Below are positions 8,966 to 59,850 of a stretch of 59,865 bases of DNA, piece after piece. The stretch's first letter is position 1; every line of letters begins with the position of its first letter. Position numbers and translations under genes: made by a program. The stretch is from contig JAGAVH010000074.1 of assembly GCA_017942025.1 (NCBI GenBank), forward strand, positions 1 to 59,865, given 5' to 3'. This stretch comes from Ruminiclostridium sp. GTDB lineage: Bacteria; Bacillota; Clostridia; Oscillospirales; Ruminococcaceae. The notes beneath the pieces are model-generated. The model was not told the DNA's origin, did no database searches, and was given only the letters and a program-made list of their open reading frames with translations.

Positions 8966-8967
8966 GT

Positions 8968-11432: not shown

Positions 11433-11435
11433 ACA

Positions 11436-11460
11436 AAACCACCGGTTTAACCGGTGGTTT
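11436..11460. terminator. Bidirectional terminator between convergent genes
   Basis: Stem AAACCACCGG / CCGGTGGTTT (11436-11445/11451-11460) with a five-base loop. It lies between the stop at 11432 and the minus-strand stop at 11464 and serves both directions. Confidence 0.8.
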
Positions 11461-11463
11461 TAA

Positions 11464-12063
11464 TCATATATCAATTACTACAATATCATCTGACAAATCA
11501 TTTAATGTACTGAAAAATATCTTGCCTGATACTTGTCTTTGGCATACGGTAACAATATGCGTATCAGAAACCGCAAATTGCAAAAAAATAAGTTCATCAG
11601 AAAAGGATACAGCCTGTTCAAGGTCAAAGCATACCGATTTTAAATCTGTTGCAATTCCCTCTCCTGTCAGCTTTACATAGCTTTCCTTTAAAGTCCAGAT
11701 CCTTGTAAACTCTGTATCCTTATTTGCTGCTGAATTTACGTACGCTATTTCGCTATCGCTGTAGCATCTTTTCATCACTCTGTCTGTGGTTTCCCTGATG
11801 CTTTCTGCGTCTATTCCGACTTCTGTCTGTGATAAAGCACAAACAACAAGTCCATCGGCATGGGATATATTATAGTGAAATTGAGCTCCTTCGATATAAG
11901 GCTTTCCTCTGTATCCTTTTTTTATAGCATCCTCGCAAAAATCAAAATCGGGATACTCACAGGACACCGCATGATTTAAAAGAGATAACCCCTCATTATG
12001 GCAGTAATTATGATAACCCTTGCCGTATTCTTTTTTTGATATGATTCTTTTTATATATATCAT
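11464..12063 (-). CDS. 4'-phosphopantetheinyl transferase (Sfp type)
   Basis: 199 residues. It carries both hallmarks of the Sfp/AcpT superfamily: VGIDAESI (about 104-111), whose Asp and Glu bind magnesium, and WTLKESYVKLTGEG (about 145-158). It transfers 4'-phosphopantetheine from coenzyme A to a serine of a carrier protein. The length suits the Sfp rather than the AcpS class. No polyketide or peptide synthetase is adjacent, so the acceptor is unknown. Its start overlaps the stop of the amidohydrolase gene upstream (TAATG), so the two are translationally coupled. Confidence 0.88.
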   Translation of the reverse strand: MIYIKRIISKKEYGKGYHNYCHNEGLSLLNHAVSCEYPDFDFCEDAIKKGYRGKPYIEGAQFHYNISHADGLVVCALSQTEVGIDAESIRETTDRVMKRCYSDSEIAYVNSAANKDTEFTRIWTLKESYVKLTGEGIATDLKSVCFDLEQAVSFSDELIFLQFAVSDTHIVTVCQRQVSGKIFFSTLNDLSDDIVVIDI

Positions 12064-42746: not shown

Positions 42747-42778
42747 AAAAACCGCAACCCTGAAGCTCAGGGTTGCGG
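42747..42778 (-). terminator. Terminator of the CapA-like operon
   Basis: Perfect 12-bp stem (42752-42763 with 42767-42778), three-base loop, and five T on the minus strand (42751-42747), eight bases after the stop at 42787. Confidence 0.85.
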
Positions 42779-42786
42779 CTGTCATT

Positions 42787-45700
42787 TTATTTTATTACAA
42801 GCGGAGTCATATCTCCGAACAGCTGTTTTTGCAAAGCGTAAGGGATATCGGGATTTGCACTTAAAATGCGATGTGCTCTTTCAATATAGGATAGTACATC
42901 CACATTATCATAGATTTTTCTATCTGTTTTTCCCTCAACGATACTGTCAACCGCCCGTGCGCTGTGAGTGTAGAAATCCATTTCATATGTAGCTGTAAAG
43001 GCACGATTCTTTACACCTGACTGCTGTGATATGAATTTATCGCTATAATTTATGACATAGCAGTCTGTAAGCTTTATAAATTCCTGCTCAGAAAGCTTTA
43101 TAAGTCTGTTCTTTTCATCTGCCGAGCTATCCTCAAAGGGACACACTATGTCTGAATTGTCAAGATAATTCTCATTCAGAGTTATTGTAGAAAGTATGAT
43201 GTTATTACCGTACTTTTCTTTAAGGAGTTCAGCGAGCTTTCTCACACATTCTCTGACATAATCGTCGGTAAATACCCCCTTTTCATAAGGCAGTAACTGC
43301 TCAGACTGTGACAAGAATGTCTTGAAAATTCTGGTAGCCTCACATCTTGGTGTCTGTACGAAATATGTATCGTCGTAGAAGTAAATTGGTCTTATTATCT
43401 CGTTGAAATCAACAAGTATCCAGTCTGACGGCTTGCTGAGCTTTTCAAAGCGTTTTTTTGCAAGCTCCTTATACAGCAGGGAGTGAGAATCCACATAGCT
43501 GTAATCAACCTCTACAGGCTTACAAAACGCAGTAAGCACGGAGCAATCAGCTACAGATGTACCGCTTGCCGCAACAGAACAACCTGCAAGTATATCCTTG
43601 AGATTGGTACCGCCAAGCATATCAACGGTAACAGGTCTGTTCTTTTTATAATACTCCGAAACCAGTACAGATACCGCTGATTTATTCTGTCCCGAAATGA
43701 TAAGCTGTGCGCATTTAAGATAAAATTCAAGATTTCTTGTATCAAGTGTACAGCCGGGAATAATTCCCTGCTTATCAAAGTAGGATGAAAGAACCTGAGC
43801 CAGCAGTTCCTTTGCATAAAGGTCAAGTCTTATTATCTCTTCAACCTCCTTGTTTTCGGGCTTGCCTTTTAAAAGGCTGTAGATAGCACAACAAACCCTG
43901 CGCAAGGTCTTATTCTCCCCGAAGTCATAGGTCGTTACAAGCTCGGAAAGATTCAACGGTGCATTTTTCTTCATATTCTGAAGGTCGTCAAAATGAGCGC
44001 CTATAAAGTCGGAGCTGAGCTTTGAGATTATGATATCCGCCGTTACATTCGTTCCGAAGAAGAAGCTCTCACAATCCGATTTTTTGATAGCGTCGAATCG
44101 TTCTGCTACCATAGAAAGCCAGAGTCTGTTGTTTTTCTGCATAGAATAGCTCTGCGCCAGATAGTCATCCTTCGCAATGTTTATAGCGGCTTCAGATATG
44201 TTCTGTGCAAAACGGCTGTCACGATTTACCGCATAGCAGGTACCGTTTTTGTTGACATATCCGGGATAATAACCTGAAACGTCAACCACTACAGGATTAA
44301 CCTTTCTTATAAAGTAGCTTTCCATATCAAATAAAAGCTTACTGTCAAGGGCAGTATCATCTGTCTTTATAAATCTGCCGTTTCTGTAATAAAGCTTAGG
44401 GTCGGTAACCTTTACGAGTATTATTCTCCTCTTATCGTAAACAGAGGTTACCGCTTCGATATATTTGTCAAGAAGCGGCATCCAGACATCGCTTTCCTTT
44501 ATATCCATAAGCTTCAGTCGGCTACTGTTCTCTTCAAAGAACCGTGACTGTCTGAAGGCTCTGCCCCCTGAGTAAATCACGCCGTCAAGTTCATAGTGAG
44601 GTGTTGTTACGGTATAATAAAAGTCAAGAATAAGGGCGTCTTTCTTATTTTCTTCGAGATACTCTGTAAAATTCTTTGTAAGATTCCAGTAAAGAGGTGT
44701 TACCGAATCACGGTACATATCCTCTTCAACCTCGATTTTTTCTCCGGATAATGCAAGTTGGGAGATAAAAAGATGTGAGCGGTCTGTGACAGCCTCTTCG
44801 TTTTCTTTAAAAAGCTCGGAAATAAGCGCAGAGCCATTAAGTGCAAAGCTTATATCCTGCTGTGGCTTCTGATATCTTGCATAGCTTATTTTATTACCGA
44901 GAGCCGCCTTTATACGGTTTATGTAGCCGACATAATCGGAATTACCGAAGGTTGCACGGTTTGCTTCGGAAAGCACAAGAGCATGACGCATGGACGTGCC
45001 TCTCGTCATAGCATAAGGAATGTAACCTGTAAAATCGTTTCTTACCTTACCTGTTTTGCCATCTCTTGCAAGACGAAGGCATAGAAGCGCTCCTATATTC
45101 TCAAATCTTGTCACTGCTTTTCCGGGCGTTACAGTACCTATCGAATATGCAACACTTACATTTCTGCCATCCTTTGCGGTTATCACATCGTACTCGCAAA
45201 GTGTACCGAGTCCGCAACCCACAACAAAATCAGCTCCGTATCCGGCAAGCTTTGCGGCGTATCTTCTCCACGCCACCTTTACTACAGGCGTATGTCGTTC
45301 CTTCCAGTTGCAATAAACTATAATAAACTCAGCGCCCTGGCTCTTTACCGTGCCTATGGCTGAGGATATATCATAATCAAGTGTTGTGCTTAAAAAGCCT
45401 ACTCTGATATTATTTATATTTACCACTCTGAAACGTTCGCCGCAGAATTCTGCCGCACCCGACGAGAAAACAGAAACAGGATATGACGAAAGCGCCTTAG
45501 GTGCTTTTCTCGCCAGCTTTCCGCTCAGGCAAAGCGAATCCAGTCCTGCTCTGCATAAGGTATCCAGAATTGCAGAGGGGCAGTTATTTACATTCTCATT
45601 TTCGTAGGTATAATCCTTATTGTCATTTACATCGGTATCGAGTGCCGCTACGGAATAATCCGATGAACGGAACACCTCGCCCAGCGACGACATTGTATAA

Positions 45701-46476
45701 TCAAAGCCAAAGCCTCTTATCATTGCATCGTGCTGTGTTGCCACACAGGTGGATATATCACCACCGAGCATAATAAGGCACTTGTGATTTTCATTCTGCA
45801 GTACGCCTTGTCTGAGAGAATATCTCCCTGCAATATCCGACGCAGATGAATTTGCGGGGCGTTCTATCTTTCTTTCAGACACACTCTTCATCTCTTCATC
45901 TGTGGCTCTGAGCTGAATTTCGACATAGTCGCCCGCATTACTTATCTTTTCTGTATGGTTTATTATCTTGAAGCTACGCACCCTGAAGCGCACCTTACCT
46001 GTAATACCCGAAATATCCACCTTACAGTCAGTCGCACCGCTGTACTGTAAAAATTCGTATTTATCACTGCAATCCTTATCAATATAGATTTTATAACCGT
46101 CCACATCAGAATCGTCTATCCAGCAAAGTATCACAGAATTTCCTCCGCCCATACTTGCAACAAGATTGCGTGGAGTTTTCATCGGACAAAGAGATACTAT
46201 CTGTGATTCGGCAAAATAGTTATCAGGGCCGTCCGCTATTCTGAAGGCTTTAACCTTATAGTCCACAACAACGCCGTTCTGACAGTTTCTGAAAACCGCC
46301 TTCGTCTTATCGGTGTTAAGCTGACCAATAAAACGATTTTTCCCGTGTTCTGATGAAAACACGCGGTATCCGTCAGCATGAGGGACATTATCCCAGGTCA
46401 GCGATACCGTATTTTCAGCCGTACCTGTTTCTATAGGAAACCTAGGCTGACCTTCGCAAAGCTGTTTATAGTTCAT
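42787..46476 (-). CDS. Giant FN3 / CapA-like / DUF6270-like protein
   Basis: 1229 residues, no signal peptide or membrane helix seen. Two FN3-like domains (about 15-95 and 102-190; repeated DGYRVF, DGYKIY) precede a CapA-like metallophosphoesterase fold (about 232-480: LIMLGGDIST, IIVYCNWKERH, GADFVVGCG, VAYSIGTV). CapA-family metal ligands in the HWGxE and GxHPH motifs appear replaced (CNWKER, GCGLGT), so it may be non-catalytic. The rest holds at least two DUF6270-like repeats (GSALISELF near 548, GGTNLKDIL near 985), each followed by a D-x-x-x-x-D-F-type strand and a YF/YS loop. It follows a six-hairpin-like protein gene by 27 bases; function unknown. Confidence 0.65.
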   Translation of the reverse strand: MNYKQLCEGQPRFPIETGTAENTVSLTWDNVPHADGYRVFSSEHGKNRFIGQLNTDKTKAVFRNCQNGVVVDYKVKAFRIADGPDNYFAESQIVSLCPMKTPRNLVASMGGGNSVILCWIDDSDVDGYKIYIDKDCSDKYEFLQYSGATDCKVDISGITGKVRFRVRSFKIINHTEKISNAGDYVEIQLRATDEEMKSVSERKIERPANSSASDIAGRYSLRQGVLQNENHKCLIMLGGDISTCVATQHDAMIRGFGFDYTMSSLGEVFRSSDYSVAALDTDVNDNKDYTYENENVNNCPSAILDTLCRAGLDSLCLSGKLARKAPKALSSYPVSVFSSGAAEFCGERFRVVNINNIRVGFLSTTLDYDISSAIGTVKSQGAEFIIVYCNWKERHTPVVKVAWRRYAAKLAGYGADFVVGCGLGTLCEYDVITAKDGRNVSVAYSIGTVTPGKAVTRFENIGALLCLRLARDGKTGKVRNDFTGYIPYAMTRGTSMRHALVLSEANRATFGNSDYVGYINRIKAALGNKISYARYQKPQQDISFALNGSALISELFKENEEAVTDRSHLFISQLALSGEKIEVEEDMYRDSVTPLYWNLTKNFTEYLEENKKDALILDFYYTVTTPHYELDGVIYSGGRAFRQSRFFEENSSRLKLMDIKESDVWMPLLDKYIEAVTSVYDKRRIILVKVTDPKLYYRNGRFIKTDDTALDSKLLFDMESYFIRKVNPVVVDVSGYYPGYVNKNGTCYAVNRDSRFAQNISEAAINIAKDDYLAQSYSMQKNNRLWLSMVAERFDAIKKSDCESFFFGTNVTADIIISKLSSDFIGAHFDDLQNMKKNAPLNLSELVTTYDFGENKTLRRVCCAIYSLLKGKPENKEVEEIIRLDLYAKELLAQVLSSYFDKQGIIPGCTLDTRNLEFYLKCAQLIISGQNKSAVSVLVSEYYKKNRPVTVDMLGGTNLKDILAGCSVAASGTSVADCSVLTAFCKPVEVDYSYVDSHSLLYKELAKKRFEKLSKPSDWILVDFNEIIRPIYFYDDTYFVQTPRCEATRIFKTFLSQSEQLLPYEKGVFTDDYVRECVRKLAELLKEKYGNNIILSTITLNENYLDNSDIVCPFEDSSADEKNRLIKLSEQEFIKLTDCYVINYSDKFISQQSGVKNRAFTATYEMDFYTHSARAVDSIVEGKTDRKIYDNVDVLSYIERAHRILSANPDIPYALQKQLFGDMTPLVIK

Positions 46477-46503
46477 ATCAAAAAATCTCCCTTGCCTACG
46501 GCT

Positions 46504-48282
46504 TTATATATTGTTAAGTATCCAGTTAACAAAGGACGCTCTTTCTTCGTCTGCGGATGTAACTGTCGGCTTTACAACGGGCTTGTTGAGTATCTCGTCA
46601 TAGTTTTTCTGAAGCTCGTCAAAATGCTTGTAGAAGTGGTAATAGCCGCCTATATAGTGCTGCACGTCATCTATTCTTATACGATAGCTGTCATGTCGCA
46701 CACAGAAGGTCTCGGCAACACTCAGCGGATTCTTCATATACATTGCAAATTCGGGATACAGATAGCCATTAAGCATATAGTGAGCTCTTCTGTAGATAGT
46801 TCTTATGAAAGCCTCTTTGTTGAATTTCTGCATATATGACGCTCTGAGGTTATTGCTTACCACTCTGTCATACAGCTCATATGCCGCCATAAGAAGCTCT
46901 AAGAAGGTATGGAAGGTTGTATCCTGATTGAATATTCTTGTCAGATTTTCGTTCGCATTACGCAATCCGAAGTTAAGGTATTTTTCCTGAGGGTCGTACA
47001 TTGTGACCTCGTTTACGGAATAAGCTATCCAGTGATCGCAGAATCGTGTGTAGTCATTTTCGATAAAGTAATCCAGAGCTTTTTTTGCACCATTAAGGAA
47101 TCTTTCATCGCCTGTTACGCTATAAGCACGAGCAAGAGCAAAGGTTGCCTCACCGTCGTAATAAACGATTCTGTCCCTTTCTTTACGTTTATAATCAGGA
47201 TAGCTCAGAACGTGATAATAGCTTCCGTCCGCTTCCTGACAGTCAAGTATGGAATTTGCTATCTTTCTGATAAGCTCTTTGTATTTATCGTTTTTGAATA
47301 CACTCATGTATGTGGAAAGAGTAATTATAACGACAGCATTACCGCCGAGCTTTACCTCGTCGGATTTTCTTTCGATGAGGTATGCGTGATCATCATCGGG
47401 GATTTCCACACTATCAAGCATATAGCCTATAGCGCTTTCAATCTTGGGAACGAGCGATTCATCATGCGTAGTGTCATACTGCATTATGACACTCCATATT
47501 GTACCCGCATGGCGGAGTATGTTATAGGTGACAAAATGAAAATCGGTAACCGGATTAACGCCATAATCAAATCTGCCGTTTTCAGCAATAGCGTTTGCAA
47601 GATAAACGGAGGATTTTCTGATAACTCTGCCGATATCCTCCTTAGCAAGCTCACCTATTACTCTTCTGCCATAATTTTCTTCATCCGGGTACAGCTTGCA
47701 GGTGCTCATATCATCATCACAGATATAGCCTACTGTTGTAAATTCTATAACATTATCGGGAATAAGAACAAATTTATCGTTTCCGTTTTCTTTGAAATGT
47801 TCTCTTATTTTAGCTGCATTGAGCTGCCAGGATTTATAATCAAGCAGACCGCCACAGTTGAGCTGGGCTTCAAGGAGCGCAGTATCAAAATTCACATCAA
47901 AGCTGACGCCCTTTTTGAAGAAGAATTCTCTCGAATCCCTCACACCTGCTAAAAAGTTTTTATAGGATACTATTTTGCTGTAATTAACAAAGTCGGCTTT
48001 AAGCCACAATACGTCCGTTCCGCTTTCCGTAACAAAGCTTTTGGCTTTGTCACACGCCTTTTCGAAGGCGTCAAATATATCATATTCCGCCGCAGAGAAA
48101 ACTTTCGCACGGAAGGTACCATCTGTCACCGATATGAAGCAGACCACCTTAGAAAACAGAGTACCCGCCATATAATCGGTCACAGAAGCCAGAATATACG
48201 GGTCGCCTTTGATGAATTTCTTCAGCGCCGCCTTTTTTTTGCTGAAGCTGTCCGGACAGCGATTGGTTTTAGTCTTAGCCAA
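46504..48282 (-). CDS. Six-hairpin (alpha/alpha) glycosidase-like protein
   Basis: 592 residues, no signal peptide. An N-terminal alpha/beta region (about 1-165: KKKAALKKFIKGDPYILASV, VLWLKADFVNYSK) is followed by a helical toroid-like region (about 210-560) with repeated hairpins: ADGSYYHVLSY, then YYDGEATFALARAYSVTGDE, FCDHWIAYSVNEV and YIGGYYHFYKHF. The pattern resembles (alpha/alpha)6 barrels of glycan-acting enzymes, but no catalytic pair can be named. It is the first gene of a two-gene operon with the CapA-like giant, which suggests that both act on one surface or cytoplasmic glycan or polymer. Confidence 0.6.
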   Translation of the reverse strand: MAKTKTNRCPDSFSKKKAALKKFIKGDPYILASVTDYMAGTLFSKVVCFISVTDGTFRAKVFSAAEYDIFDAFEKACDKAKSFVTESGTDVLWLKADFVNYSKIVSYKNFLAGVRDSREFFFKKGVSFDVNFDTALLEAQLNCGGLLDYKSWQLNAAKIREHFKENGNDKFVLIPDNVIEFTTVGYICDDDMSTCKLYPDEENYGRRVIGELAKEDIGRVIRKSSVYLANAIAENGRFDYGVNPVTDFHFVTYNILRHAGTIWSVIMQYDTTHDESLVPKIESAIGYMLDSVEIPDDDHAYLIERKSDEVKLGGNAVVIITLSTYMSVFKNDKYKELIRKIANSILDCQEADGSYYHVLSYPDYKRKERDRIVYYDGEATFALARAYSVTGDERFLNGAKKALDYFIENDYTRFCDHWIAYSVNEVTMYDPQEKYLNFGLRNANENLTRIFNQDTTFHTFLELLMAAYELYDRVVSNNLRASYMQKFNKEAFIRTIYRRAHYMLNGYLYPEFAMYMKNPLSVAETFCVRHDSYRIRIDDVQHYIGGYYHFYKHFDELQKNYDEILNKPVVKPTVTSADEERASFVNWILNNI

Positions 48283-48347: not shown

Positions 48348-48376
48348 ATTATATCAGATTTTTCAAAAAATGTCAA
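48348..48376 (-). promoter_or_regulatory. Promoter of the CapA-like operon
   Basis: Consensus TTGACA (48376-48371), 17 bases, TATAAT (48353-48348) on the minus strand. Its -35 lies 20 bases from the divergent nadA -35. Confidence 0.8.
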
Positions 48377-51465: not shown

Positions 51466-52602
51466 TTACGCTAATTTCAGCGAAACAAGGTCTGCAACCT
51501 TTGCTTTGGTGCTTTTGAGAACATCAGCATAGATGTTTGCTGTTACTCCGATGTCGCAATGTCCTAAATGGTCGGATACTACTTTCAGGTCAACTCCGCT
51601 GTTCAGCAGGAGCGTAGCATTGCAATGTCTGAGGCTGTGCAAGGTAAGAAAATCGAACTCCGTTCCCCTGAGAAAGCGTTTCAGCGATGTTCCGAGAGAA
51701 CTTCTGTCACGATAATTTCCGTTTGCAGAGGTAAATACCATTTCAGGATGAGAGAAATCATCACCGAGAGCCTCGATAAGCTGTTCCTGATATTTCTTCT
51801 GCTCTCTGAAAATATCTGCAAGAGCCTGACTCATTCCGATTGTACGGATACTACTTTCGGTTTTGGGAGTTGTAAGCCAGTGCTTTCCAGCTACATCAGC
51901 GAGATTATGCTCTATGGAGATTGTCATTTCCTCAAAGTTGATGTCATTCCACGAAAGAGCAAGGCACTCACCACATCGCATTCCGGTATAAAGCAACACC
52001 TTAATAATACGCTTTATATCAGGGTCGCACTTCTTCTCCTCAATCAACTTCATAAATCGACTGGTCTGTTCTTCATCAAGGACAGGCTTTTTCTTTTTGC
52101 TGCGATTTTTCGGAAGAATAACGTTCCTACACGGAGTATCCCGGATAAATCCCTGCTCAACTCCTCTGTGGAAGATACTCTGGAGCACAACATAAATCTT
52201 ACGCACTGTTTCAGGCTGGAGCTTCAGGGATTGCACAAACTGAGTAAGTCTCGGCGTGTTTATATCCTTTACCCTCACATTACCAAGAACAGGCTTGATG
52301 TGGTTGTTGTAAGCACTCTTATAATTGTAGACTGTTCCTTCTTTCAACTCTACAGGAGCATAATTTTCAAAGTACCAGTCTGCAAGCTCCGAAAAACGCA
52401 TATTTTCATTGAGCTGTGTGTAGCCTTTGCAGTGGCGTTCAAACTCGAAAGCATATTCTTCGGCAAGCTTCTGAGCCTTTTTCGGTGTAGTACCTTTCGG
52501 CGGTACAAAGGTTGTTGATTTTACGATTTGCTTTTTGTTTTCATCATAACCGAGGGACACCTTAATTCTGAAGGCATCGCCTCTTTTTGTAATAGTAGCC
52601 AT
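51466..52602 (-). CDS. int: Tyrosine recombinase/integrase
   Basis: 378 residues. An N-terminal arm-type DNA-binding domain (about 1-60) and a SAM-like core-binding domain (about 65-165) precede the catalytic domain. Catalytic residues visible are Arg in YTGMRCGECLALSW (about 207), His and Arg in HSLRHCNATLLL (about 322-325), His in DHLGHCDIG (about 345) and Tyr in ANIYADVLKS (about 357). It integrates and excises the element by site-specific recombination. Its position 127 bases from the rpsI stop is typical for the chromosomal junction. Confidence 0.93.
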   Translation of the reverse strand: MATITKRGDAFRIKVSLGYDENKKQIVKSTTFVPPKGTTPKKAQKLAEEYAFEFERHCKGYTQLNENMRFSELADWYFENYAPVELKEGTVYNYKSAYNNHIKPVLGNVRVKDINTPRLTQFVQSLKLQPETVRKIYVVLQSIFHRGVEQGFIRDTPCRNVILPKNRSKKKKPVLDEEQTSRFMKLIEEKKCDPDIKRIIKVLLYTGMRCGECLALSWNDINFEEMTISIEHNLADVAGKHWLTTPKTESSIRTIGMSQALADIFREQKKYQEQLIEALGDDFSHPEMVFTSANGNYRDRSSLGTSLKRFLRGTEFDFLTLHSLRHCNATLLLNSGVDLKVVSDHLGHCDIGVTANIYADVLKSTKAKVADLVSLKLA

Positions 52603-52655
52603 ACGATTAAATTCCTCCTTAAAATCTAACCATTATGACACATTTCTGCACTTAC

Positions 52656-52685
52656 ATTATACACTTTAAAGTGTGAAACTGTCAA
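52656..52685 (-). promoter_or_regulatory. int: int promoter with palindromic operator
   Basis: Minus strand TTGACA (52685-52680), 18-base spacer, TATAAT (52661-52656). A perfect 14-bp palindrome ACACTTTAAAGTGT (52661-52674) fills most of the spacer, a good site for a dimeric repressor that would block int transcription. Confidence 0.65.
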
Positions 52686-52704
52686 TAGTCTGTGTGATTG
52701 TACA

Positions 52705-53838
52705 TCACTCCAATCCATTCTTATTTCTATTCCTATTGATACCAATTCCGAGAACAAAATTCTGAAACAGCTCATAAAGTCCTTTCCCTTTTAGAAACTC
52801 CTCAGCCTTTTTCAGAACAGTCTCCATTCTGGAAACCTGCTCTTTCAGCTTTGCATTCTCAATACGCAGATTTATGGATTTTGAGTCTGCATTCTTTTTC
52901 TTCTCGGCGGTAAGCTCAGATTTCAGCTGAGTGTTCTCCTGTTGTAACTGAGTAATCTCAGCTTTCTGCTTCCTCTCCTTTTTCTCGGAAGCGATTTGCT
53001 TCTTTGCAGTAGCCGCAAGGTTTTCATAGTCCTCTCGACTAACTGTCAGATTATCACCGAACATTGTTTTCTTCGTAGGAATATTTTCAATAGCCTTAAT
53101 TTTTGTTTCCTTGTCAGAAAGCCTTGACAGCTTGTTTTCAAGTGCCACTACTTCCTTTTTGCGTTCTTTTTTCTTGTAATCAAGAACTGACAAATGCTCG
53201 TTGCGAGTTCCTTTTTGCTCCCATTCAATATCGAGAGTTTTCATAATATCCGCAATCACCTGTTTTTCGTTTTCAATCCATAGCTTTGAACAGGTATTCA
53301 TTTTACCCTCGCTCTTGAAACCCTGCTGTTCCAGCGCCTTTGAGAGTGAAACTCTTGTTGATAGTCCTCGCTTCTGCTCCGTTGCAAAGGGAACAAAGTC
53401 TATATGAATGTGCGGTGTTGCTTCATCAAGATGAATAACAGCGTTGAACATTCTGAGGTGTGGATTGCGCTGCTGAAAACTCTCCGCATATTGTTTCAAA
53501 GCTTCGGTTGCTCTTTGGGATATATCAGAGCCGCAGGGAGTATCATCTTTATTCCCAATCTGAAATATTGCTTCGTGAAACTCCTTTTCCTGTCGGCTGT
53601 GCCTGATGTGGTCGTGATAATCTTTGATAATTCTGTCCTTGCGTTTCTGCTTAGAGTTGTATTCTGCGAGTGATTTATCAAACAGCTCATGATATACTGT
53701 TTTTACATCCTCACTGATGATTGTAATGTTGTCGGCAATTCTGCTCTTGTCAACATTTTCTGCAACAAATCTGCGGTTGTTATGATAAAGGTCGCCCTTA
53801 CCGATAACGCCGCTGATACTTCTTTTTTCGATAAGCAA
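52705..53838 (-). CDS. mobV: MobV-family relaxase (Pre/Mob)
   Basis: 377 residues. The N-terminal HNNRRFVAENVDKSRIADNI and the three-His motif HLDEATPHIHIDFVP (about 136-150) are typical of MobV relaxases, which nick oriT and lead the strand into a recipient using a helper conjugation system. The C-terminus is a long coiled coil (about 230-360). TTG 53838 is the only start after the last stop, but it is only two bases from AGGAG, so the true start is uncertain. The oriT-like repeat lies directly upstream. Confidence 0.88.
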   Translation of the reverse strand: MLIEKRSISGVIGKGDLYHNNRRFVAENVDKSRIADNITIISEDVKTVYHELFDKSLAEYNSKQKRKDRIIKDYHDHIRHSRQEKEFHEAIFQIGNKDDTPCGSDISQRATEALKQYAESFQQRNPHLRMFNAVIHLDEATPHIHIDFVPFATEQKRGLSTRVSLSKALEQQGFKSEGKMNTCSKLWIENEKQVIADIMKTLDIEWEQKGTRNEHLSVLDYKKKERKKEVVALENKLSRLSDKETKIKAIENIPTKKTMFGDNLTVSREDYENLAATAKKQIASEKKERKQKAEITQLQQENTQLKSELTAEKKKNADSKSINLRIENAKLKEQVSRMETVLKKAEEFLKGKGLYELFQNFVLGIGINRNRNKNGLE

Positions 53839-53870
53839 TTCTCCTTTCTGAATAAGCTTGCTTTGGTCTT

Positions 53871-53940
53871 GTTACTTCTTCCAGAAGTAACGCAAAGATA
53901 CTTTTGACATCCGCATAGGCTTCTATCAAAAGTATCATTG
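53871..53940. other. Putative origin of transfer (oriT)
   Basis: Two inverted repeats lie directly upstream of the relaxase gene: GTTACTTC/GAAGTAAC (53871-53878/53884-53891, five-base loop) and GATACTTTTGA/TCAAAAGTATC (53897-53907/53926-53936, 18-base loop). Extra GCAA/TTGC pairing flanks the second. MobV oriTs commonly lie just before mob and contain such repeats. The nick site is not assigned. Confidence 0.55.
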
Positions 53941-53983
53941 CGCTCTCCGAGGGTAATTCGGCAATGCTGCCTCAGAAATCCTC

Positions 53984-54114
53984 GTGTAAACTTAACTCGG
54001 AATTTGATGTGTAAGCCGTGTAAAAGGCTTGTTTGCTGTGTATTCGGTGTGTAAACTACACAGTGCTTACACAGCGAAAATCCCATAAACTCCAGATTTA
54101 CACACCTTACACAT
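53984..54114. repeat. Iteron-like TGTGTAA repeat cluster, putative replication origin
   Basis: Words of the form TGTGTAA or its complement TTACACA recur about seven to eight times: near 53984, 54008, 54018, 54048 on the plus strand and 54066, 54097, 54106 in the opposite orientation. Head-to-head halves flank about 54057. Clustered short repeats next to primase and helicase genes are expected for an origin used while the element is excised. Confidence 0.5.
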
Positions 54115-54125
54115 CGTTTTCGGGG

Positions 54126-55481
54126 TTACTTCACAATACTGCGGTAAGTGGTGTCGATACCACGATAACCCCTCGCTTTCTTTCCGTTGGAATGGCTTAT
54201 GACATAATCGCTGTAAGTGATATTATATCGGTGATGATTCTGCTTGACCCACAGATTAAAGCTTTCCTTTTTCATAGCCGTAACACTGTTGAGACTGCAC
54301 CAGTAGCAATATCCCGAATACAAGTCAGCCGTTGAACATTCAAGGTCTGATCCGAATTTCACAAGCTGTTCGTCCTGCATAAATCCTATAATATTACAGC
54401 TATCCTCAATGCTTTTCTGAAGATTATCCGCCGTCCTCTGACTTATGGTAAACTTGAAATCATTGGCATACAGCCTTTGCAGTCCTTTGAACATCCACAG
54501 AAATATTCCTTCCTTGTTTTCAATGAATTTCTCCACAAGGAATGGGTTATCAACTCTGTCCAAAGGCTTAGGCTTTGTAGAAATAATAATCTGCCTGCGG
54601 AAAAATGCGTCTGATTTATCATTCGCCGCATTAAGTGTTCCGTTACCAAACCCCATAAGCTTTGAAAAGATACTTGCAGGATAAGACTGAACTCGTTTCT
54701 TTTCGATAAGCATAGGACCCTCGTTTGTGATAATAGTTTTCAGCATATTTGTCTGCGTTAAAGCTTCCATTTTCATATCGTCATCAAGGAACAGATACGC
54801 TTTCTCCAGCACAGCACGGGCAAATGGATTTGTTTCAAGATATTGCAGATTTCCTGTGGCCATACCTTCCTTGAATATCTCTTTGAGCAGTACACCGATA
54901 CGGCTTTTCCCCTCGCCGCCGTTTCCTACAAGCATTAACATTTTCTGAGCCTTTGTGCTTGGCGTCAGTAAGTAGCCGAGCCATTCCTGTAATGTCGCAA
55001 TATCTTCCGTTTCCAAAAGCTCTTCCAGAAATTTCAAAAACACAATCGGCACTTCCGCTTCTGGATTATACCTGACGTTCAGACGGTTATAACAGAATTT
55101 CTTTTCTTCCGTAAATGTTCCGTCAATATTAAGAGTTCCGTTCAGAAGATGAATTTCATTAGGGTCAAGTACAATTTCAGGAGAATACGCTTCATACTGT
55201 AACGCAGAAAGAAGCTGTGTTACACGGTTTGCCAGTCCTGCTGTAATATGCGGTTTCAGTTTTTCATAAATCTCAGCTTTGATTTCGCTGTCGGGAATAT
55301 ATCCATCAACATCGTAGAACTGGTTGTTGACACACTTTACCTTGTGTTCGCTGAGAAGCTCTCTGCAAAATGCAACCTCGTGAATTTTGTTGTCTACAAG
55401 CCACGCTGGTGCTGGAAGTTCATTCTCACACTGCGATAAGCTCTCGCTGCGCTGTACAATTTCTGTTTCTGCTGTCTGCAT
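54126..55481 (-). CDS. D5/P4-type replicative helicase
   Basis: 451 residues. The ATPase core has Walker A VGNGGEGKSRIGVLLKEIF (about 190-208), Walker B-like AYLFLDDDMKMEAL and the D5_N region LQEWLGYLLTPSTKAQKMLM. These superfamily-3-type helicases drive phage, plasmid and mobile element replication. AAAGGAGAT lies upstream, inside the preceding primase gene, which it overlaps by 56 bases. The iteron cluster lies just after its stop. Confidence 0.87.
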   Translation of the reverse strand: MQTAETEIVQRSESLSQCENELPAPAWLVDNKIHEVAFCRELLSEHKVKCVNNQFYDVDGYIPDSEIKAEIYEKLKPHITAGLANRVTQLLSALQYEAYSPEIVLDPNEIHLLNGTLNIDGTFTEEKKFCYNRLNVRYNPEAEVPIVFLKFLEELLETEDIATLQEWLGYLLTPSTKAQKMLMLVGNGGEGKSRIGVLLKEIFKEGMATGNLQYLETNPFARAVLEKAYLFLDDDMKMEALTQTNMLKTIITNEGPMLIEKKRVQSYPASIFSKLMGFGNGTLNAANDKSDAFFRRQIIISTKPKPLDRVDNPFLVEKFIENKEGIFLWMFKGLQRLYANDFKFTISQRTADNLQKSIEDSCNIIGFMQDEQLVKFGSDLECSTADLYSGYCYWCSLNSVTAMKKESFNLWVKQNHHRYNITYSDYVISHSNGKKARGYRGIDTTYRSIVK

Positions 55482-56013
55482 AAGCGATAATCTCCTTTCC
55501 GTTTTCTAAAAAGTCCTTGCGTTCGTCAGTTGTGCCTGTGATGAAAATATCGCAGTAATGCCCATAAAGTTCAAGGTTTCGCAGGCTTTCCTCAAAGAAT
55601 GGGTGAAACTGTTCTGCTTCGCTTTTCGGTGCATACTCCTCACGATACTTTTTCAGCAGTCTGTAATAATCGGAGAGAATGCGAAATGCTTTCTGCTCCT
55701 TTTCTCGCTGTGTTTCAATCCTGACGTGCTGTCTGATATACGGCTTGTCCGTATTACAGGAAACACCGAAATCAGCACATAGCTTCTTTGCCGCTTCGAG
55801 CGGAGTAAGACTGAATAGCCTTGCCGTAAGCGAGATTACATCACCATGTTCTGTACAACCAAAACAATAGAAATGATCATCGTAAAGCTTCATAGAGGGA
55901 TTGCGGTCGTCGTGAAAGATACATTGCGTCATTCCGTTACGCACCGTCAAGCCGTAATGCTCAGCGGCGACCGGAACTGGCACGGTATCCTTGATTTCCT
56001 TGAAGTCAATCAC
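55426..56013 (-). CDS. CHC2 zinc-finger primase-like protein
   Basis: 195 residues. An N-terminal CHC2 finger (about 3-85) has Cys and His in GMTQCIFHDDRNPSMKLY and FYCFGCTEHGDVI, as in DnaG. The TOPRIM catalytic part is not evident, so this may load or partner the helicase encoded next. It overlaps the HTH gene by four bases (ATGA) and the helicase gene by 56. Confidence 0.83.
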   Translation of the reverse strand: MIDFKEIKDTVPVPVAAEHYGLTVRNGMTQCIFHDDRNPSMKLYDDHFYCFGCTEHGDVISLTARLFSLTPLEAAKKLCADFGVSCNTDKPYIRQHVRIETQREKEQKAFRILSDYYRLLKKYREEYAPKSEAEQFHPFFEESLRNLELYGHYCDIFITGTTDERKDFLENGKEIIAYADSRNRNCTAQRELIAV

Positions 56014-56213
56014 GCAACATCACTCTCCCTCCTGTAATCCTCGCCGAACACAGCCTTATACAGATTTTCTTCTGCAATCAGATACTTTTTCCCTGCCATA
56101 AAGCAAGGGAGCTGTCCTGAAATGCACATCTGACGGATACGATACTCTGTGAGTCCGTCAATAAGCTTTGCGGCTTCCTTAATGGTAAGCACACGTCTGT
56201 TGGTAGTAGGCAT
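56010..56213 (-). CDS. Excisionase-family helix-turn-helix protein
   Basis: 67 residues from ATG 56213 with AAGGAGG upstream; a longer reading has no ribosome site. The winged-HTH pattern VLTIKEAAKLIDGLTEYRIR, then PCFMAGKKYLIAEENLYKAV, is typical of excisionase or MerR-like DNA-binding proteins. It may direct excision with Int or regulate the element; it is far from int, so a Xis role is not certain. First gene of the replication operon. Confidence 0.75.
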   Translation of the reverse strand: MPTTNRRVLTIKEAAKLIDGLTEYRIRQMCISGQLPCFMAGKKYLIAEENLYKAVFGEDYRRESDVA

Positions 56214-56314
56214 TGCTACTCCTCCTTTTTGATAAAATCGGTCTTTGACCGACACAGCTTTACGCTATGTAACAGGCGTGTCCGGAGAGGGATATTCAGT
56301 TGTCAAGATGCTTC

Positions 56315-56326
56315 TGCAACGTTGCA
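56315..56326. promoter_or_regulatory. 12-bp palindrome TGCAACGTTGCA at the start of the replication operon
   Basis: Perfect palindrome just downstream of the -10 box at 56332-56337 on the minus strand, so it overlaps the expected transcription start. It is a candidate operator. Confidence 0.45.
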
Positions 56327-56331
56327 TTCTC

Positions 56332-56371
56332 ATTATATCCGACACAATCCGCAAAGTCAATAGATGTGATA
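56332..56371 (-). promoter_or_regulatory. Promoter of the HTH-primase-helicase operon with TAGATGTGATA box
   Basis: Minus-strand TTGACT (56360-56355), 17 bases, TATAAT (56337-56332). The motif TAGATGTGATA (56361-56371, plus-strand reading) abuts the -35 box. A further related word, AGATGTGA in opposite orientation, lies at 56396-56403. Confidence 0.65.
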
Positions 56372-56516
56372 GACACACTCTATTTACAGCTATTTTCACA
56401 TCTGTTTCTGCATATACTCTACTTTTTGAAGGATAACATCTATTTTTAAAAATATATCTCTGAAACGGCTTAAATACGCTGTTTAAAATTTTTATTTGCA
56501 ATATTCAGCAGCTAAA

Positions 56517-56570
56517 AAAAGTCCCACAATGAAAAAACTGAAAGAAAATATTTTTGAAAATGGGACTTTC
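56517..56570 (+). other. Long-loop inverted repeat AAAGTCCCA / TGGGACTTT
   Basis: Nine-bp arms (56518-56526 and about 56560-56568) surround an A-rich loop, between the two divergent promoters. The rest of the 420-base gap (56214-56633) holds the promoters and operators listed here and no gene. Confidence 0.4.
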
Positions 56571-56574
56571 TGAG

Positions 56575-56603
56575 TTGACTGAAAATAGTAGATGTGATAC
56601 AAT
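56575..56603 (+). promoter_or_regulatory. Promoter of the DUF6076 gene with TAGATGTGATA box
   Basis: TTGACT (56575-56580), 17 bases, TACAAT (56598-56603). The 11-bp motif TAGATGTGATA (56589-56599) overlaps the start of the -10 box, so a bound protein should repress. Confidence 0.65.
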
Positions 56604-56633
56604 GAATAAAATAACTGCTAAAGGAGAATTGCA

Positions 56634-57731
56634 ATGACAGGCTTTTCAGCGTATTTTAACGGTACTACGGTTTATATAAACGGAGCAAAGAAATATGTAG
56701 TCGGTGAAATTCTTGAAAAGATACTTGATAAGCGTTACCGTGAGCTTGACAGGCTTTACTCAGAATGCAAACGATATGAAACGATACTACGTTATCCCGA
56801 AGATATGCGTGAAGCTGATGAAAGTGAAAAGCTGTTTCAGGGAGCAATTGCGTTTTATGCCAAAATTGAACAGATGATTGCAAATACTCCGCCGTACAGC
56901 TCTATGGATATACAGCGTGATATGTTACGCACTATTCTTAATCTTCACAGCTGGGCGTTTGAAGAAGATGAACTGATTGACGCTGATACGGAAGAACATT
57001 ACCACTTCTATGTGCGTATCGGCTCAAACGATATGGAGGATGCAGAGCTTCTGAGGGATATCTACAAGCTCAACGACAGATTAAAAGCCTTTGCAACGGA
57101 AATGAGAGTTTTTATAGAGGACATTCTCCGTGTAAAGCGTACCTTTGAGCCGTTCTTAGAGAAAATCCACAGTCAAAGTCGCTATCTTGATAATAGCGAA
57201 ACTGCACAAGTTGTTTATGACCGCAGGGATAAACCATATTTCAGTGCACAGCCTTATGAACGATTAGAACCGTCGGGAGTAATGCGGTTATCTTACGAAG
57301 TCCTGTGGAAAAAGAAATCCCCCGAATTGTGTCAGTATTACACTTTCACAACACTCGGAGGGTATCTGTATATTGAATTATTCAAGGGACTGGAGTTACA
57401 TTATCTGCCGAAGAAATGCGGATACTGCGGCAAATATTTTCTGCTTACGGCAGGTCTGTTCTCTGATTACTGCACAAGAGAAATAGAGGGTATGGACGGC
57501 AGAGTATGCCGTGATATGGGACACAGAAAGAAATATGCCGATAAAATCAAGACCAATCCTTACTGGAATGTTTATAACAAGGCTTACAAGCAGCATTATG
57601 CCCGATACCTTAAAAAGAAAATGACTCAAGCTGAATTTGCTGAGTGGGCAGATTATGCTCTTGAACTCAGAAGTAAGGCGGAAAATGGCGAGATTGATTT
57701 TGAGGAGTATAGGGGGCTAATTAGAAAATAG
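56634..57731 (+). CDS. DUF6076 protein with a zinc-ribbon-like motif
   Basis: 365 residues, mostly helical. The C-terminal third has Cys pairs in KKCGYCGKYFLLTAGLFSDY and CTREIEGMDGRVCRDMGHRK (about 262-302), a likely zinc site, followed by a basic helical tail. This matches the DUF6076 family, often found in mobile elements of Clostridia, function unknown. It is the only gene of the element's core on the plus strand. AAAGGAG precedes the ATG. A DNA- or RNA-binding role is inference. Confidence 0.75.
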   Translation: MTGFSAYFNGTTVYINGAKKYVVGEILEKILDKRYRELDRLYSECKRYETILRYPEDMREADESEKLFQGAIAFYAKIEQMIANTPPYSSMDIQRDMLRTILNLHSWAFEEDELIDADTEEHYHFYVRIGSNDMEDAELLRDIYKLNDRLKAFATEMRVFIEDILRVKRTFEPFLEKIHSQSRYLDNSETAQVVYDRRDKPYFSAQPYERLEPSGVMRLSYEVLWKKKSPELCQYYTFTTLGGYLYIELFKGLELHYLPKKCGYCGKYFLLTAGLFSDYCTREIEGMDGRVCRDMGHRKKYADKIKTNPYWNVYNKAYKQHYARYLKKKMTQAEFAEWADYALELRSKAENGEIDFEEYRGLIRK

Positions 57732-57805
57732 GGTGTAAAGTCAGTCTTATATCTATCATTTCCTCGTTGTTTAATAAATGTAACGTTGAATAAAGTTGGA
57801 TTTTA

Positions 57806-57834
57806 TTGCAATTTGACGAATTCTGTGATATAAT
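57806..57834 (+). promoter_or_regulatory. Orphan promoter pointing into the serine recombinase 3' end
   Basis: TTGCAA (57806-57811), 17 bases, TATAAT (57829-57834). Downstream there is no plus-strand gene, only the antisense of the recombinase and a CTCC..GGAG hairpin near 57877-57900. It may make an antisense RNA or be left from a displaced gene. Confidence 0.4.
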
Positions 57835-57848
57835 AAAAATTGTATATT

Positions 57849-59696
57849 TTAGGTACGAAAATTAGATTGAGTTATCTCCGCCTGTGTGTGCAGGTGGAGT
57901 ATTAGGGATAAGTTTTTGGCAAACAACGGATTATTGCGGATTTCCGCAGGTAAATTCAAAGAATTATCCTCTGATATATGTAAAAAATCGGGGACTCCCG
58001 AAGGAGTCCCCATAATTTCGCCGTCAATCGAAATTACAGGGCATCTCTTATTTCCGTCAACGCTGATATTCATATCTGTGTTGGCATTTTTATTATAGCT
58101 GAAATTCCATACAAAACGGTTATTTTCAACCAATATAGAATTTACGATTTCGTTAAAGAGGTCGGAAGAATATTCAGGTGAACTCATATCCACCATTCCT
58201 GCGAGAGCCTGAGAAACTGCTGTCATATCACACATACAGTTTTCAAAGAGTTCCTGTTGTTCTCCACATCTTGCTTTTTCGTCCTTGAACTTCTGTAAGT
58301 CCGCAGAATAGGTTGCTTTAAACTCAGAAAATTCTTCCTTGCTAATCTGACCGTCAGTAAAAAGGTCAATAAGATTTTTTAGCTTCTTTTCAGCCTTGTC
58401 AATCTGTGCGTCAAGGAATAATTCGCTGTGCTGAGTATTGTTTCGTGTAGCGTCGGTATAATACTTCTTAATGTATTCAAGGGCAATCAACAAATCCTCT
58501 TTGCGATTTTTCCAAGCTTCATTAAGGAAGTATTTTGCCATCATTTCCATTTTCCAATCGGTAACGGAATGTTCGTTACAGTATCCGTCAGTTTCAAGTC
58601 CCATCTTCTCACGCTGAGAAGCCTTACCGTTATTCACCTGATTGTAGCAGACGTAATTGTATGACACAACACCGTCTTTGTTTTTGTGATAACGGTTTTT
58701 CCTGAAAGATGAACCACAAGAGCAGCGTAACTTCTTTACCCAAATGTCTCTGGAAGTACGGTTGCTCTTTTTCTTTTCCTCACCGTTCTCAACAAGCGTG
58801 GTTTTACGCTTTTCTTTGAGGATAGCTTGACATCTGTCCCACTGTTCTTCGGTAATAATCGGCTCAAAATCGCCCTTGACATATTCATAGGTATCTCTGT
58901 CAAGATTATGGATACGCTTCTGTTCAAGGTAATTATTGCTGTACGACTTATTATAGCCGATATATCCCTTGTAAGTAGCATTTTGAAGAATGCGACCTAC
59001 ATTGTGGCAAGTCCATTTGGTAGTTCCCGTAGCTGTAAGGCGTTTACGCTCCATTAAAATCTTTGCGATTTTCAGCGTACCGTAGCCTTCTTCATAAAGG
59101 TCATATATCATATGAACAGTTTCAGCCTGTTCGGGATTTATTGTGTAGGTTTCTCCGGGCTTTCTGTCATAGCCTAAGATGTTACCACTTCCGTAAAGCT
59201 GTTTATTGGCACGGCTGATACGCTGTCCTGCACGAACACGCTCAGATACCTTACGGCTTTCTTCCTGAGCAAGTGTAGCCATAATTGTCAGACGAAGCTC
59301 ACCGTCACCGTCCATAGTCCAGATGTTATCGTCAACGAAGAACACTTCAATTCCACGTCCCTTTAATGCACGGGTATGGGTGAGAGTGTCAACGGTATTT
59401 CTTGCGAAACGGCACACCTCACGAGTAACAATAAGGTCAAATACTCCTTTTTCGGCGTCAGCAATCATTCTCATAAACGAGGGTCTTTTCTTTGCCTGAG
59501 TACCTGTGATACCCTCGTCTATGTATCTGCCTACGACTTCCCAATTCGGAAAACGCTTTGCAGTATCTTCATACCATTGCATCTGATTTTCAAGTGCCGA
59601 GAGCTGCGCTTCGTGTTCTGTTGATACTCGTCCATAAAATACGACTTTTCTCGGTCTGTTTTTGTCAAGAAAAAGCGGATTTGTTCCATAATACAT
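57849..59696 (-). CDS. Large serine recombinase
   Basis: 615 residues from ATG 59696 with AAGGAGG upstream; a longer reading lacks a site. The resolvase domain starts RKVVFYGRVSTEHEAQLSAL (catalytic Ser in RVST) and continues with EVCRFARNTVDTLTHTRALK. A recombinase domain (PEQAETVHMIYDLYEEGYGT), a zinc ribbon (LRCSCGSSFRKN, NEHSVTDWK) and a coiled coil (about 440-510) follow. It could integrate or excise its own element. The last ~55 residues (about GEIMGTPSGVPDFLHISEDN onward) are unusual and run through an intrinsic terminator at 57982-58011. Confidence 0.92.
   Translation of the reverse strand: MYYGTNPLFLDKNRPRKVVFYGRVSTEHEAQLSALENQMQWYEDTAKRFPNWEVVGRYIDEGITGTQAKKRPSFMRMIADAEKGVFDLIVTREVCRFARNTVDTLTHTRALKGRGIEVFFVDDNIWTMDGDGELRLTIMATLAQEESRKVSERVRAGQRISRANKQLYGSGNILGYDRKPGETYTINPEQAETVHMIYDLYEEGYGTLKIAKILMERKRLTATGTTKWTCHNVGRILQNATYKGYIGYNKSYSNNYLEQKRIHNLDRDTYEYVKGDFEPIITEEQWDRCQAILKEKRKTTLVENGEEKKKSNRTSRDIWVKKLRCSCGSSFRKNRYHKNKDGVVSYNYVCYNQVNNGKASQREKMGLETDGYCNEHSVTDWKMEMMAKYFLNEAWKNRKEDLLIALEYIKKYYTDATRNNTQHSELFLDAQIDKAEKKLKNLIDLFTDGQISKEEFSEFKATYSADLQKFKDEKARCGEQQELFENCMCDMTAVSQALAGMVDMSSPEYSSDLFNEIVNSILVENNRFVWNFSYNKNANTDMNISVDGNKRCPVISIDGEIMGTPSGVPDFLHISEDNSLNLPAEIRNNPLFAKNLSLILHLHTQAEITQSNFRT
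57982..58011 (-). terminator. Intrinsic terminator inside the serine recombinase ORF
   Basis: Minus strand GGGGACTCC-TTCG-GGAGTCCCC (58011-57990) then GA and six T (57987-57982). The UUCG loop, perfect 9-bp stem and U-run are textbook, yet the frame remains open for a further ~130 bases. Confidence 0.75.
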
Positions 59697-59715
59697 AATA
59701 TGTCCTCCTTCGGCT

Positions 59716-59850
59716 TTATGCCATATATTCTCTGAGTTCGTGTTTAACAATTTTATCAAAGGTTTCCTGATTGATAAGTTCGTGCTTGAGCAGAACTTTC
59801 AGAGCCACCCATATACCAAAATTGCGTTCGATTTGTGTTGTATTAGTCAT
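59716..59850 (-). CDS. Tiny SHOCT-like ORF upstream of the serine recombinase
   Basis: 44 residues starting at ATG 59850, with TAAGGAG upstream; it ends 19 bases before the recombinase start. FGIWVALKVLLKHELINQET and FDKIVKHEL resemble the short SHOCT module (a helical hairpin with an L-x-x-G/E-x-I-x-x-E-x-F pattern) often encoded next to serine recombinases in Clostridia. Function unknown. It is probably translated together with the recombinase. Confidence 0.65.
   Translation of the reverse strand: MTNTTQIERNFGIWVALKVLLKHELINQETFDKIVKHELREYMA

Follow-up and report, generated by a model that had tools for sequence, protein, structure and literature searches.

The closest described relative of the genes considered here is gtfC of Staphylococcus aureus, which lies directly behind the adhesin gene pls and encodes a protein of 538 amino acids that is not recognised as a glycosyltransferase by CAZy (PMC5230774). 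GtfC and GtfD are both needed for full N-acetylhexosaminyl modification of serine in the serine-aspartate (SD) region of Pls; with the genes of strain COL, GtfD alone gives weak glycosylation, which GtfC raises, whereas with the strain 1061 genes neither is dispensable (PMC5230774). The products of gtfC and gtfD are likewise treated as glycosyltransferases in PMC7029136. A homologue of GtfC, P0002 (gene 1, 592 amino acids, TTG start), is encoded on the minus strand of a contig of Ruminiclostridium sp. (JAGAVH010000074.1, assembly GCA_017942025.1), followed after a gap of 27 bases by P0001 (gene 2, 1229 amino acids), a giant with CapA-like and DUF6270-like modules. The window analysed is the whole contig (59,865 nucleotides) of this genome of 2.5 Mb, which is 83% complete.

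The staphylococcal protein belongs to the P0002 family because the published primer GtfC-F matches the family gene of an S. aureus plasmid locus (L090), which is in the same tree as P0002, with 0/26 mismatches (GtfC-R, 3/23; primers from PMC5230774). A preliminary description of this DNA, which knew of no described system with such a composition, was thus too strong on this point. No glycosyltransferase domain was found by domain scan in the S. epidermidis relative of GtfC, and the TagE-type or glycosyltransferase label of GtfC appears to rest on database names.

The P0002-P0001 pair is interpreted, with a probability of about 0.72, as a cytoplasmic maturation module for giant surface proteins that possess a ribosomally made Asp-dipeptide stalk. 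Such long, acidic stalks are found in biofilm adhesins. Glycosylation of serine is the sole treatment of them described in the literature examined, and the family that travels with them, having neither a Pfam nor an NCBIfam model, has been overlooked and is uncharacterised. In what follows, L numbers denote fetched loci and G numbers sampled genomes, G000 being the window's own.

Linkage of the GtfC-like family to Asp-dipeptide repeats

The P0002 family is linked to Asp-dipeptide stalk proteins. The association spans two or more bacterial phyla and extends from staphylococci, Listeria and enterococci to Agrobacterium and gut Oscillospiraceae, including cases in which the repeat is nearly devoid of hydroxyl groups. 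Repeats were scored in 40-residue segments as Asp at every second position, in 23 loci fetched outside the window's own taxon (hereafter its own family) and 12 inside it; the plasmid loci were selected manually, with 13 of the 54 records examined, and ten loci from a phylum search were unselected. A protein with perfectly alternating Asp, in SD or Ala-Asp (AD) repeats, is encoded in 18 of the 23 outside loci (L058-L063, L076-L079, L081-L084, L086, L088, L090 and L091), the longest runs comprising 24 to 279 Asp. Its gene is the next one upstream of the family gene in 12 loci and the next one downstream in one (L083), is separated from it by secretion genes in four (L058, L059, L063 and L091), and is convergent with it in one (L062). 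The unselected loci, all of them matches outside the own family, are repeat-positive in eight of ten cases. Five loci have no alternating repeat (L057, L080, L085, L087 and L089): the adhesin of L057 is annotated in fragments, L085 is at a contig end, L089 is without annotation and has poor gene picks, and the neighbour in L087 is an immunoglobulin-repeat protein without alternation, annotated with a type I secretion target domain.

Family members outside the clade of the pair are 29-40% identical to P0002 (plasmid-record relatives, 29.6-37.6%), and 39 of the 54 plasmid records contain a single place covering at least 80% of it. Two family alignments were made, of 17 and of 34 rows, the latter being the basis of the tree and of the conserved columns. 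In the midpoint-rooted tree, the pair's P0002 clade (support 100/100) lies inside an own-family clade (100/99) that is placed among the repeat-linked members.

The enzymes that accompany the family vary. Some members are fused to a GT4 glycosyltransferase domain (L057, L076), a Mur ligase (L059 by Pfam; L062 and L091 by record annotation) or three ATP-grasp stretches (L058), and others have as a neighbour a Mur ligase (L063, L090, L077), a SASA esterase (L078), CapA (L087) or an SdgB-like glycosyltransferase (L060, 764 bits with the NCBIfam SdgB model, cutoff 800). The CapA link in L087 (Acinetobacter, 8419-11796) is independent of the window's lineage: beside the adhesin gene is the P0002-family gene, after which come an open reading frame of 160 codons without a Pfam match and a capA gene whose product retains the NNH and GHxxH motifs. 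No partner enzyme is recognised in seven loci where the family gene is beside Ala-Asp repeats (L079, L081, L082, L083, L084, L086 and L088), in which the residue alternating with Asp in the longest run is Ala at 83-99% of positions (Ser <=3, Thr 0). A scan of ten neighbouring proteins, eight of which belong to L079, L081-L084 and L088, identified a sortase beside L079, a methyltransferase in L081 at a distance of two genes, and otherwise housekeeping-type or unknown domains. The sortase gene (L079, 8280-8897, in G530) comes after the P0002-family gene and its AD-repeat protein. As the family occurs in these seven loci beside Ala-Asp repeats with no recognised partner, a Ser or Thr in each repeat unit cannot be a requirement for what the family itself does, which leaves the side chains of Asp, the backbone, or simple binding as possibilities.

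The linkage was also approached from the repeats. An AD query of 378 genomes of the phylum matched 15, and strict runs of at least 20 with small uncharged residues as partners of Asp were confirmed in seven (G357, G455, G503, G530, G540, G583 and G602), all seven of which carry the P0002 family (Fisher 5.8e-13, assuming that ten of the 11 carriers of the phylum search were in the draw). The non-carriers at 1e-20 are G571 (run of 37), G588 (run of 17) and six genomes with shorter runs. In G571 (L196), Asp alternates with Arg and Trp over the 37 repeats. At 1e-8 the AD query missed the window's own genome, and the carrier G485 was also not among its matches.

Stalk proteins in pair-carrying genomes

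P0002 and P0001 are encoded adjacently, with order and strand kept, in eight loci: the window, L001-L004, L045 (G132), L046 (G258) and L064 (MT835777), of which L064 and L045 are close kin, judged by their flanks. According to the preliminary description, homologues that never occur together would have refuted its reading; the adjacency in eight loci shows that they do occur together. The intergenic gap is 17-27 bases in seven of the eight loci; in L003 the start as called leaves a gap of 0. Both genes are intact and similar in the relatives, at 71-89% for P0002 (L001-L004) and 52-79% for P0001 (L001, L003 and L004). The named relatives are metagenome-assembled genomes of Ruminiclostridium, Oscillospiraceae and Clostridia, from animal colon where a source is stated.

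Wall-anchored proteins with Asp-Thr or Asp-Ser repeats, (DT/DS)n, are encoded in six of the seven pair-carrying genomes, including the window's and those of L002, L003 and L004, although some of these genomes are possibly close kin; wherever an end was seen, it is of the NPxTG type. In the window's own genome, a (DT)n stretch with a few DS is found at the very start of contig C27 (G000:C27:1-396), followed by an NPNTG-type end. G132 encodes a protein of 2023 amino acids that combines a choice-of-anchor A domain (176 bits) with alternating Asp in a run of at least 596. In G258 a similar gene for a (DT)n surface protein is split between two frames (L173, 8314-9965 of G258:C3), the N-terminal part being separate from the repeat part, which indicates either a broken gene or an assembly error. 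G273, of another genus, has a (DA)n protein with LPQTG and a member of the P0002 family, with no P0001 match.

A (DT)n query matched 27 of 297 own-family genomes, and 29 loci were read. Strict runs of at least 30 were found in five genomes, of which G000, G132, G258 and G273 are carriers of the P0002 family and G206, where Asp alternates with Lys, Ser and Glu, is a non-carrier; that is, in 4/8 carriers versus 1/289 others (Fisher 1.1e-6). In a sample of five genomes of the genus, three have both the pair and the repeat and two have neither (one of the latter, G015, has a family member and no P0001). Linkage to Asp-dipeptide stalks is established for the P0002 family and probable for the pair.

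Several observations weigh against this assignment. A strict stalk gene is near the family gene in 0/12 own-family loci, over the stretches fetched. In the window's own genome the stalk gene is cut by the contig, and the part encoding the protein's N-terminus was not found. No strict repeat was found in one of the seven pair-carrying genomes (L001/G967) or in four of the eight carriers (G015, G021, G056 and G109, drafts of 90 to 510 contigs), and G015, G021 and G109 are rated 96-100% complete; because in several drafts (L130, L180 and L181) the repeats lie at the edge of a contig, their absence from drafts is weak evidence. No GtfD-like enzyme was found in G000, G132, G258, G273 or G969 by a search at E 1e-8 that had no positive control. 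Elsewhere in the family, L080 has a member without any repeat neighbour, and L050 (9907-12234) has one of 775 amino acids with an extended N-terminus, in a flagellar cluster after FliF and FliH (Pfam). Members in L047 (3257-5071) and L049 (5566-7452), the latter behind a CE2/GDSL-type esterase, have an apparent N-terminal membrane helix, which suggests an extracytoplasmic branch of the family. P0001-like giants also exist without P0002, for example upstream of pilus-type genes (L052, L055 and L056).

The unlinked stalk gene, the family member among flagellar genes and the giants by pilus-type genes would fit recruitment of the own-lineage family to another substrate, a pilus or flagellar protein, with the (DT)n co-occurrence being a result of common ancestry within one genus. 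This is improbable, however, given that G273 combines the P0002 family with a (DA)n protein outside the genus and without P0001, and that the presence or absence of pair and repeat agree in 5/5 genus genomes.

Alternatively, the pair may complete the O-glycosylation of Thr in the (DT)n stalk together with an unlinked glycosyltransferase, as the lineage's version of the staphylococcal SD systems. GtfC, of the same family, works with a glycosyltransferase on Ser (PMC5230774), Thr or Ser alternates with Asp in the window's lineage, and two family members are fused to GT4 domains, but the five genomes searched as above yielded no GtfD-like gene, and family members are found beside repeats that are 83-99% Ala at this position. 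Glycosylation by such a route is thus possible but rather unlikely.

Organisation of the unit and modules of its products

The features of the pair are collected below. The two genes form a self-contained unit with a consensus promoter, a short intergenic gap and a terminator, as had been proposed. The promoter (48376-48348) is the sole 12/12 match in the 9 kb scanned, and promoter-like elements were recognised by eye upstream of the pair in L001, L002, L003, L004 and L045, as were hairpins 3' of the second gene in the relatives inspected. The flanks of the pair vary among relatives (by eye), with the promoter-like element and hairpin retained. Neither P0002 nor P0001 shows evidence of a signal peptide or membrane helix (the top 19-residue Kyte-Doolittle mean is 1.31 in both), which agrees with the cytoplasmic location originally suggested.

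Features of the P0002-P0001 unit, in order of transcription (coordinates of the window)
Feature	Coordinates	Strand	Evidence or remark
Sigma-70 type promoter, TTGACA-17-TATAAT, TG before second hexamer	48348..48376	-	12/12 match
Gene 1, P0002, 592-aa GtfC-like family member	46504..48282	-	Open reading frame, family alignment, tree
N-terminal domain of P0002, ~residues 45-200	47683..48150	-	Conserved in alignment; no Pfam match, no known family
Predicted (alpha/alpha)6-type domain of P0002, ~residues 215-560	46603..47640	-	Profile matches, invariant residues
Intergenic gap, 27 bases, likely ribosome-binding site GGGAG	46477..46503	-	
Gene 2, P0001, 1229-aa multidomain partner	42787..46476	-	
FN3-like N-terminal region of P0001, residues ~10-195	45892..46449	-	FN3-bearing chains match residues 9-104 only, E 1.9e-4 to 0.005; second module by eye
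CapA/PGA_cap-like module of P0001, residues 235-447	45136..45774	-	Pfam PF09587, E 1.3e-10
DUF6270-like copy I of P0001, residues 535-800	44077..44874	-	hhalign to copy II 98.9%, E 1.6e-17
DUF6270-like copy II of P0001, residues 930-1195	42892..43689	-	Pfam PF19786, 24.9 bits, under cutoff 27.5
Intrinsic terminator hairpin, 12 pairs	42752..42778	-	Stem then TTTTTG on the minus strand; palindrome scan listed the plus strand

No Pfam or NCBIfam model is above cutoff for P0002 in the library scans. Its profile is similar to that of cellobiose 2-epimerase among PDB entries (3vw5, E 0.0018), C5-epim_C scores 23.1 bits against a cutoff of 23.3, the LanM cyclase region is matched in seven of 17 family members (LanM score 18 bits, cutoff 304), and there is further weak similarity to GH76 mannanases, GH88 and pectate-lyase. 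These weak but consistent matches agree with an (alpha/alpha)6 fold, the fold attributed to P0002 in the preliminary description, which may hold, judged by sequence profiles. In the alignment of 34 rows, 59 columns keep the window's residue in at least 32, and R371, Y374, Y375, E378, D416, H417, W418, E462, R534, R536, D538, D539 and H542 (P0002 numbering) are invariant in 34/34. The zinc ligands of LanC-like cyclases are Cys-Cys-His. There is no Cys among the 59 near-invariant columns of the P0002 family, and identity of P0002 with a LanC-like cyclase was rejected.

In P0001, the CapA-like module proposed from the outset is confirmed (PGA_cap, 41.7 bits, cutoff 27), and its best solved relative is MslH (E 5.8e-5). 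The proposed FN3 region is supported by profiles in its first module, the second being recognised by eye alone. DUF6270 in the giant stands in part: the window's protein itself is below cutoff, but its two copies match each other, and the family is above cutoff in the relatives L052 and L053 and in a separate protein of 461 amino acids behind the pair in L003. NNH, HxG and GHxPH are the metal and catalytic motifs of the CapA type. NNH and GHxPH, and likewise HxG, are lost in 6/6 pair-clade rows aligned; the giants of L053 and L055, which occur without P0002, keep NNH and GHxPH, and that of L052 keeps them in part. The GS motif at the start of DUF6270-like copy II is lost in 6/6 pair-clade rows and that of copy I kept in 5/6, and one may guess that the Ser of the latter is catalytic. 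Because the CapA catalytic motifs are lost in all six pair rows aligned, P0001 may bind or scaffold instead of making poly-glutamate.

Giants of the P0001 build are restricted to the window's own family in the samples searched. A class-wide search with the P0001 alignment matched 79 of 291 genomes, with no full giant among the 79 non-own places listed (profile positions 155-535). In L052, L055 and L056 (the last being cut), the giant is directly upstream of genes for lipoprotein, PilC-like, pseudopilin-like and PilT-like products, resembling a pilus or type II secretion system by eye, and a large acidic protein comes next in L055 and L056.

The accessory-Sec protein GtfB aids GtfA. By analogy, P0002 might be a non-enzyme chaperone for the export or glycosylation of Asp-rich stalks, with P0001 as its scaffold, which would accord with the seven loci lacking a recognised partner beside Ala-Asp repeats, with the weak glycosylation by GtfD alone that GtfC raises in strain COL (PMC5230774), and with the loss of several active-site motifs from P0001. 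The 59 near-invariant columns, however, include active-site-like clusters (RxxYYxGE, DHW and RIDDxxH) that seem beyond the needs of a binding protein, and a purely chaperone-like role is considered less probable than not by a clear margin of judgement.

Nine of the ten nearest neighbouring genes have Pfam matches, to V-type ATPase subunits, NadA, a UDG-family protein, ribosomal proteins L13 and S9, an integrase and Mob_Pre; the tenth has none. Operons for poly-gamma-glutamate have a CapB-type ligase and CapC nearby. Neither was found among these ten neighbours, nor was any polymerase, other ligase or glycosyltransferase. The above-cutoff PGA_cap match and the weak similarities of P0002 to C5-epimerase, pectate-lyase and GH88 could be taken to indicate that a glycan or a poly-gamma-glutamate-like polymer is synthesised or trimmed by the pair in the cytoplasm, as had been thought at first, but the neighbours, the loss of the CapA motifs and the family-wide linkage to Asp-dipeptide proteins make this very improbable, and a glycan or poly-gamma-glutamate pathway was rejected. 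A link to a surface polymer holds if the term is taken widely. What the loci of the P0002 family point to is ribosomally made Asp-dipeptide stalks of adhesins.

A likely integrated mobile element with a phage-type integrase and Mob_Pre (Pfam) is beside rpsI in the window (51466-59759), and includes a serine-recombinase-like gene (57849-59759, by eye). No known RNA families or tRNAs were found in the window. A phage origin of the pair was considered and rejected: the single match among phages, MT835777 (L064, a record named Bacteriophage sp.), carries genes for ribosomal proteins and for central and sugar metabolism (by eye) and resembles a fragment of a bacterial chromosome, and of 25 IMG/VR stretches that matched a pattern, none encodes a relative.

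Proposed mode of action and known systems

If the pair matures a stalk protein, its substrate here would be a stalk of mostly (Asp-Thr)n with some Asp-Ser. P0002 would recognise this polyanion via its predicted (alpha/alpha)6-type domain, rich in invariant Arg, His, Asp and Glu, and either modify it or hold it for a partner enzyme before secretion. P0001 would fill the slot held elsewhere by a glycosyltransferase, Mur ligase, ATP-grasp ligase or CapA; because its CapA site is lost, it would most likely bind the stalk by its FN3 and CapA-like modules, and any activity of its own would reside in DUF6270-like copy I. The stalk protein would then be exported and anchored to the wall via its C-terminal NPxTG-type signal. 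We infer the action of the pair on the (DT)n protein, the order of these steps and any chemistry.

The P0002 family may perform a new kind of chemistry on Asp-repeat stalks. Partners that form amides on carboxylates (Mur ligase and RimK/YheCD-type ATP-grasp), by analogy with cyanophycin synthesis (PMC9427784, PMC9262961), would fit Asp side chains as the target. A wider proposal, to which we give somewhat less than an even chance, is that the GtfC-like family constitutes a new (alpha/alpha)6 enzyme class acting on the Asp residues or backbone of ribosomal SD, AD and DT stalks across two or more phyla. Its partners (glycosyltransferase, Mur ligase, ATP-grasp, CapA or DUF6270) would be interchangeable, and giant adhesins would undergo a cytoplasmic maturation resembling that of ribosomally synthesised and post-translationally modified peptides; the window would hold a lineage version whose partner consists largely of degenerate enzyme modules. 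Whether a GtfC-like protein acts on a pure (AD)n or (DT)n stalk becomes a directly testable question. The linkage also gives a concrete question for BapA of Paracoccus, an Asp-Ala repeat adhesin whose larger apparent mass is unexplained (PMC5588039).

The LanC/LanM cyclases and AGE-type epimerases share (alpha/alpha)6-type similarity with P0002, with all scores under family cutoffs and, in the P0002 family, no conserved Cys. The cyanophycin synthetase CphA1 joins ATP-grasp and Mur ligase domains, and the backbone of its product is not ribosomal. CphA1 decorates an Asp backbone (PMC9427784, PMC9262961), and both of its ligase types occur fused to a P0002-like domain (ATP-grasp in L058; Mur ligase in L059, L062 and L091), whereas the window's neighbourhood has no ligase; a literature search, with bioRxiv outside its scope, found nothing joining serine-aspartate repeats with Mur ligases, and for adhesins with ATP-grasp, Mur ligase and type I secretion yielded one paper, to judge from its title a review of the cell wall. 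MslH, a calcineurin-fold lasso-peptide epimerase deposited under a CapA-type name, acts on a ribosomal peptide and requires E44, N87, H88, D91, H259 and other residues (PMC10406935); it differs in that pair-clade P0001 has lost the NNH and GHxPH motifs, by alignment. SdgA and SdgB modify the same kind of SD-repeat stalk, but are GT4-type enzymes with no similarity to P0002 or P0001 seen (PMC3794999, PMC8561734). The Pls locus of S. aureus SCCmec type I is the most similar, in that GtfC is homologous to P0002 and the host encodes a wall-anchored Asp-dipeptide protein; there the gene follows that of the adhesin and has the GT4-type GtfD as its partner, whereas in the window's genome P0002 is paired with the CapA/DUF6270 giant and its gene is not linked to that of the adhesin.

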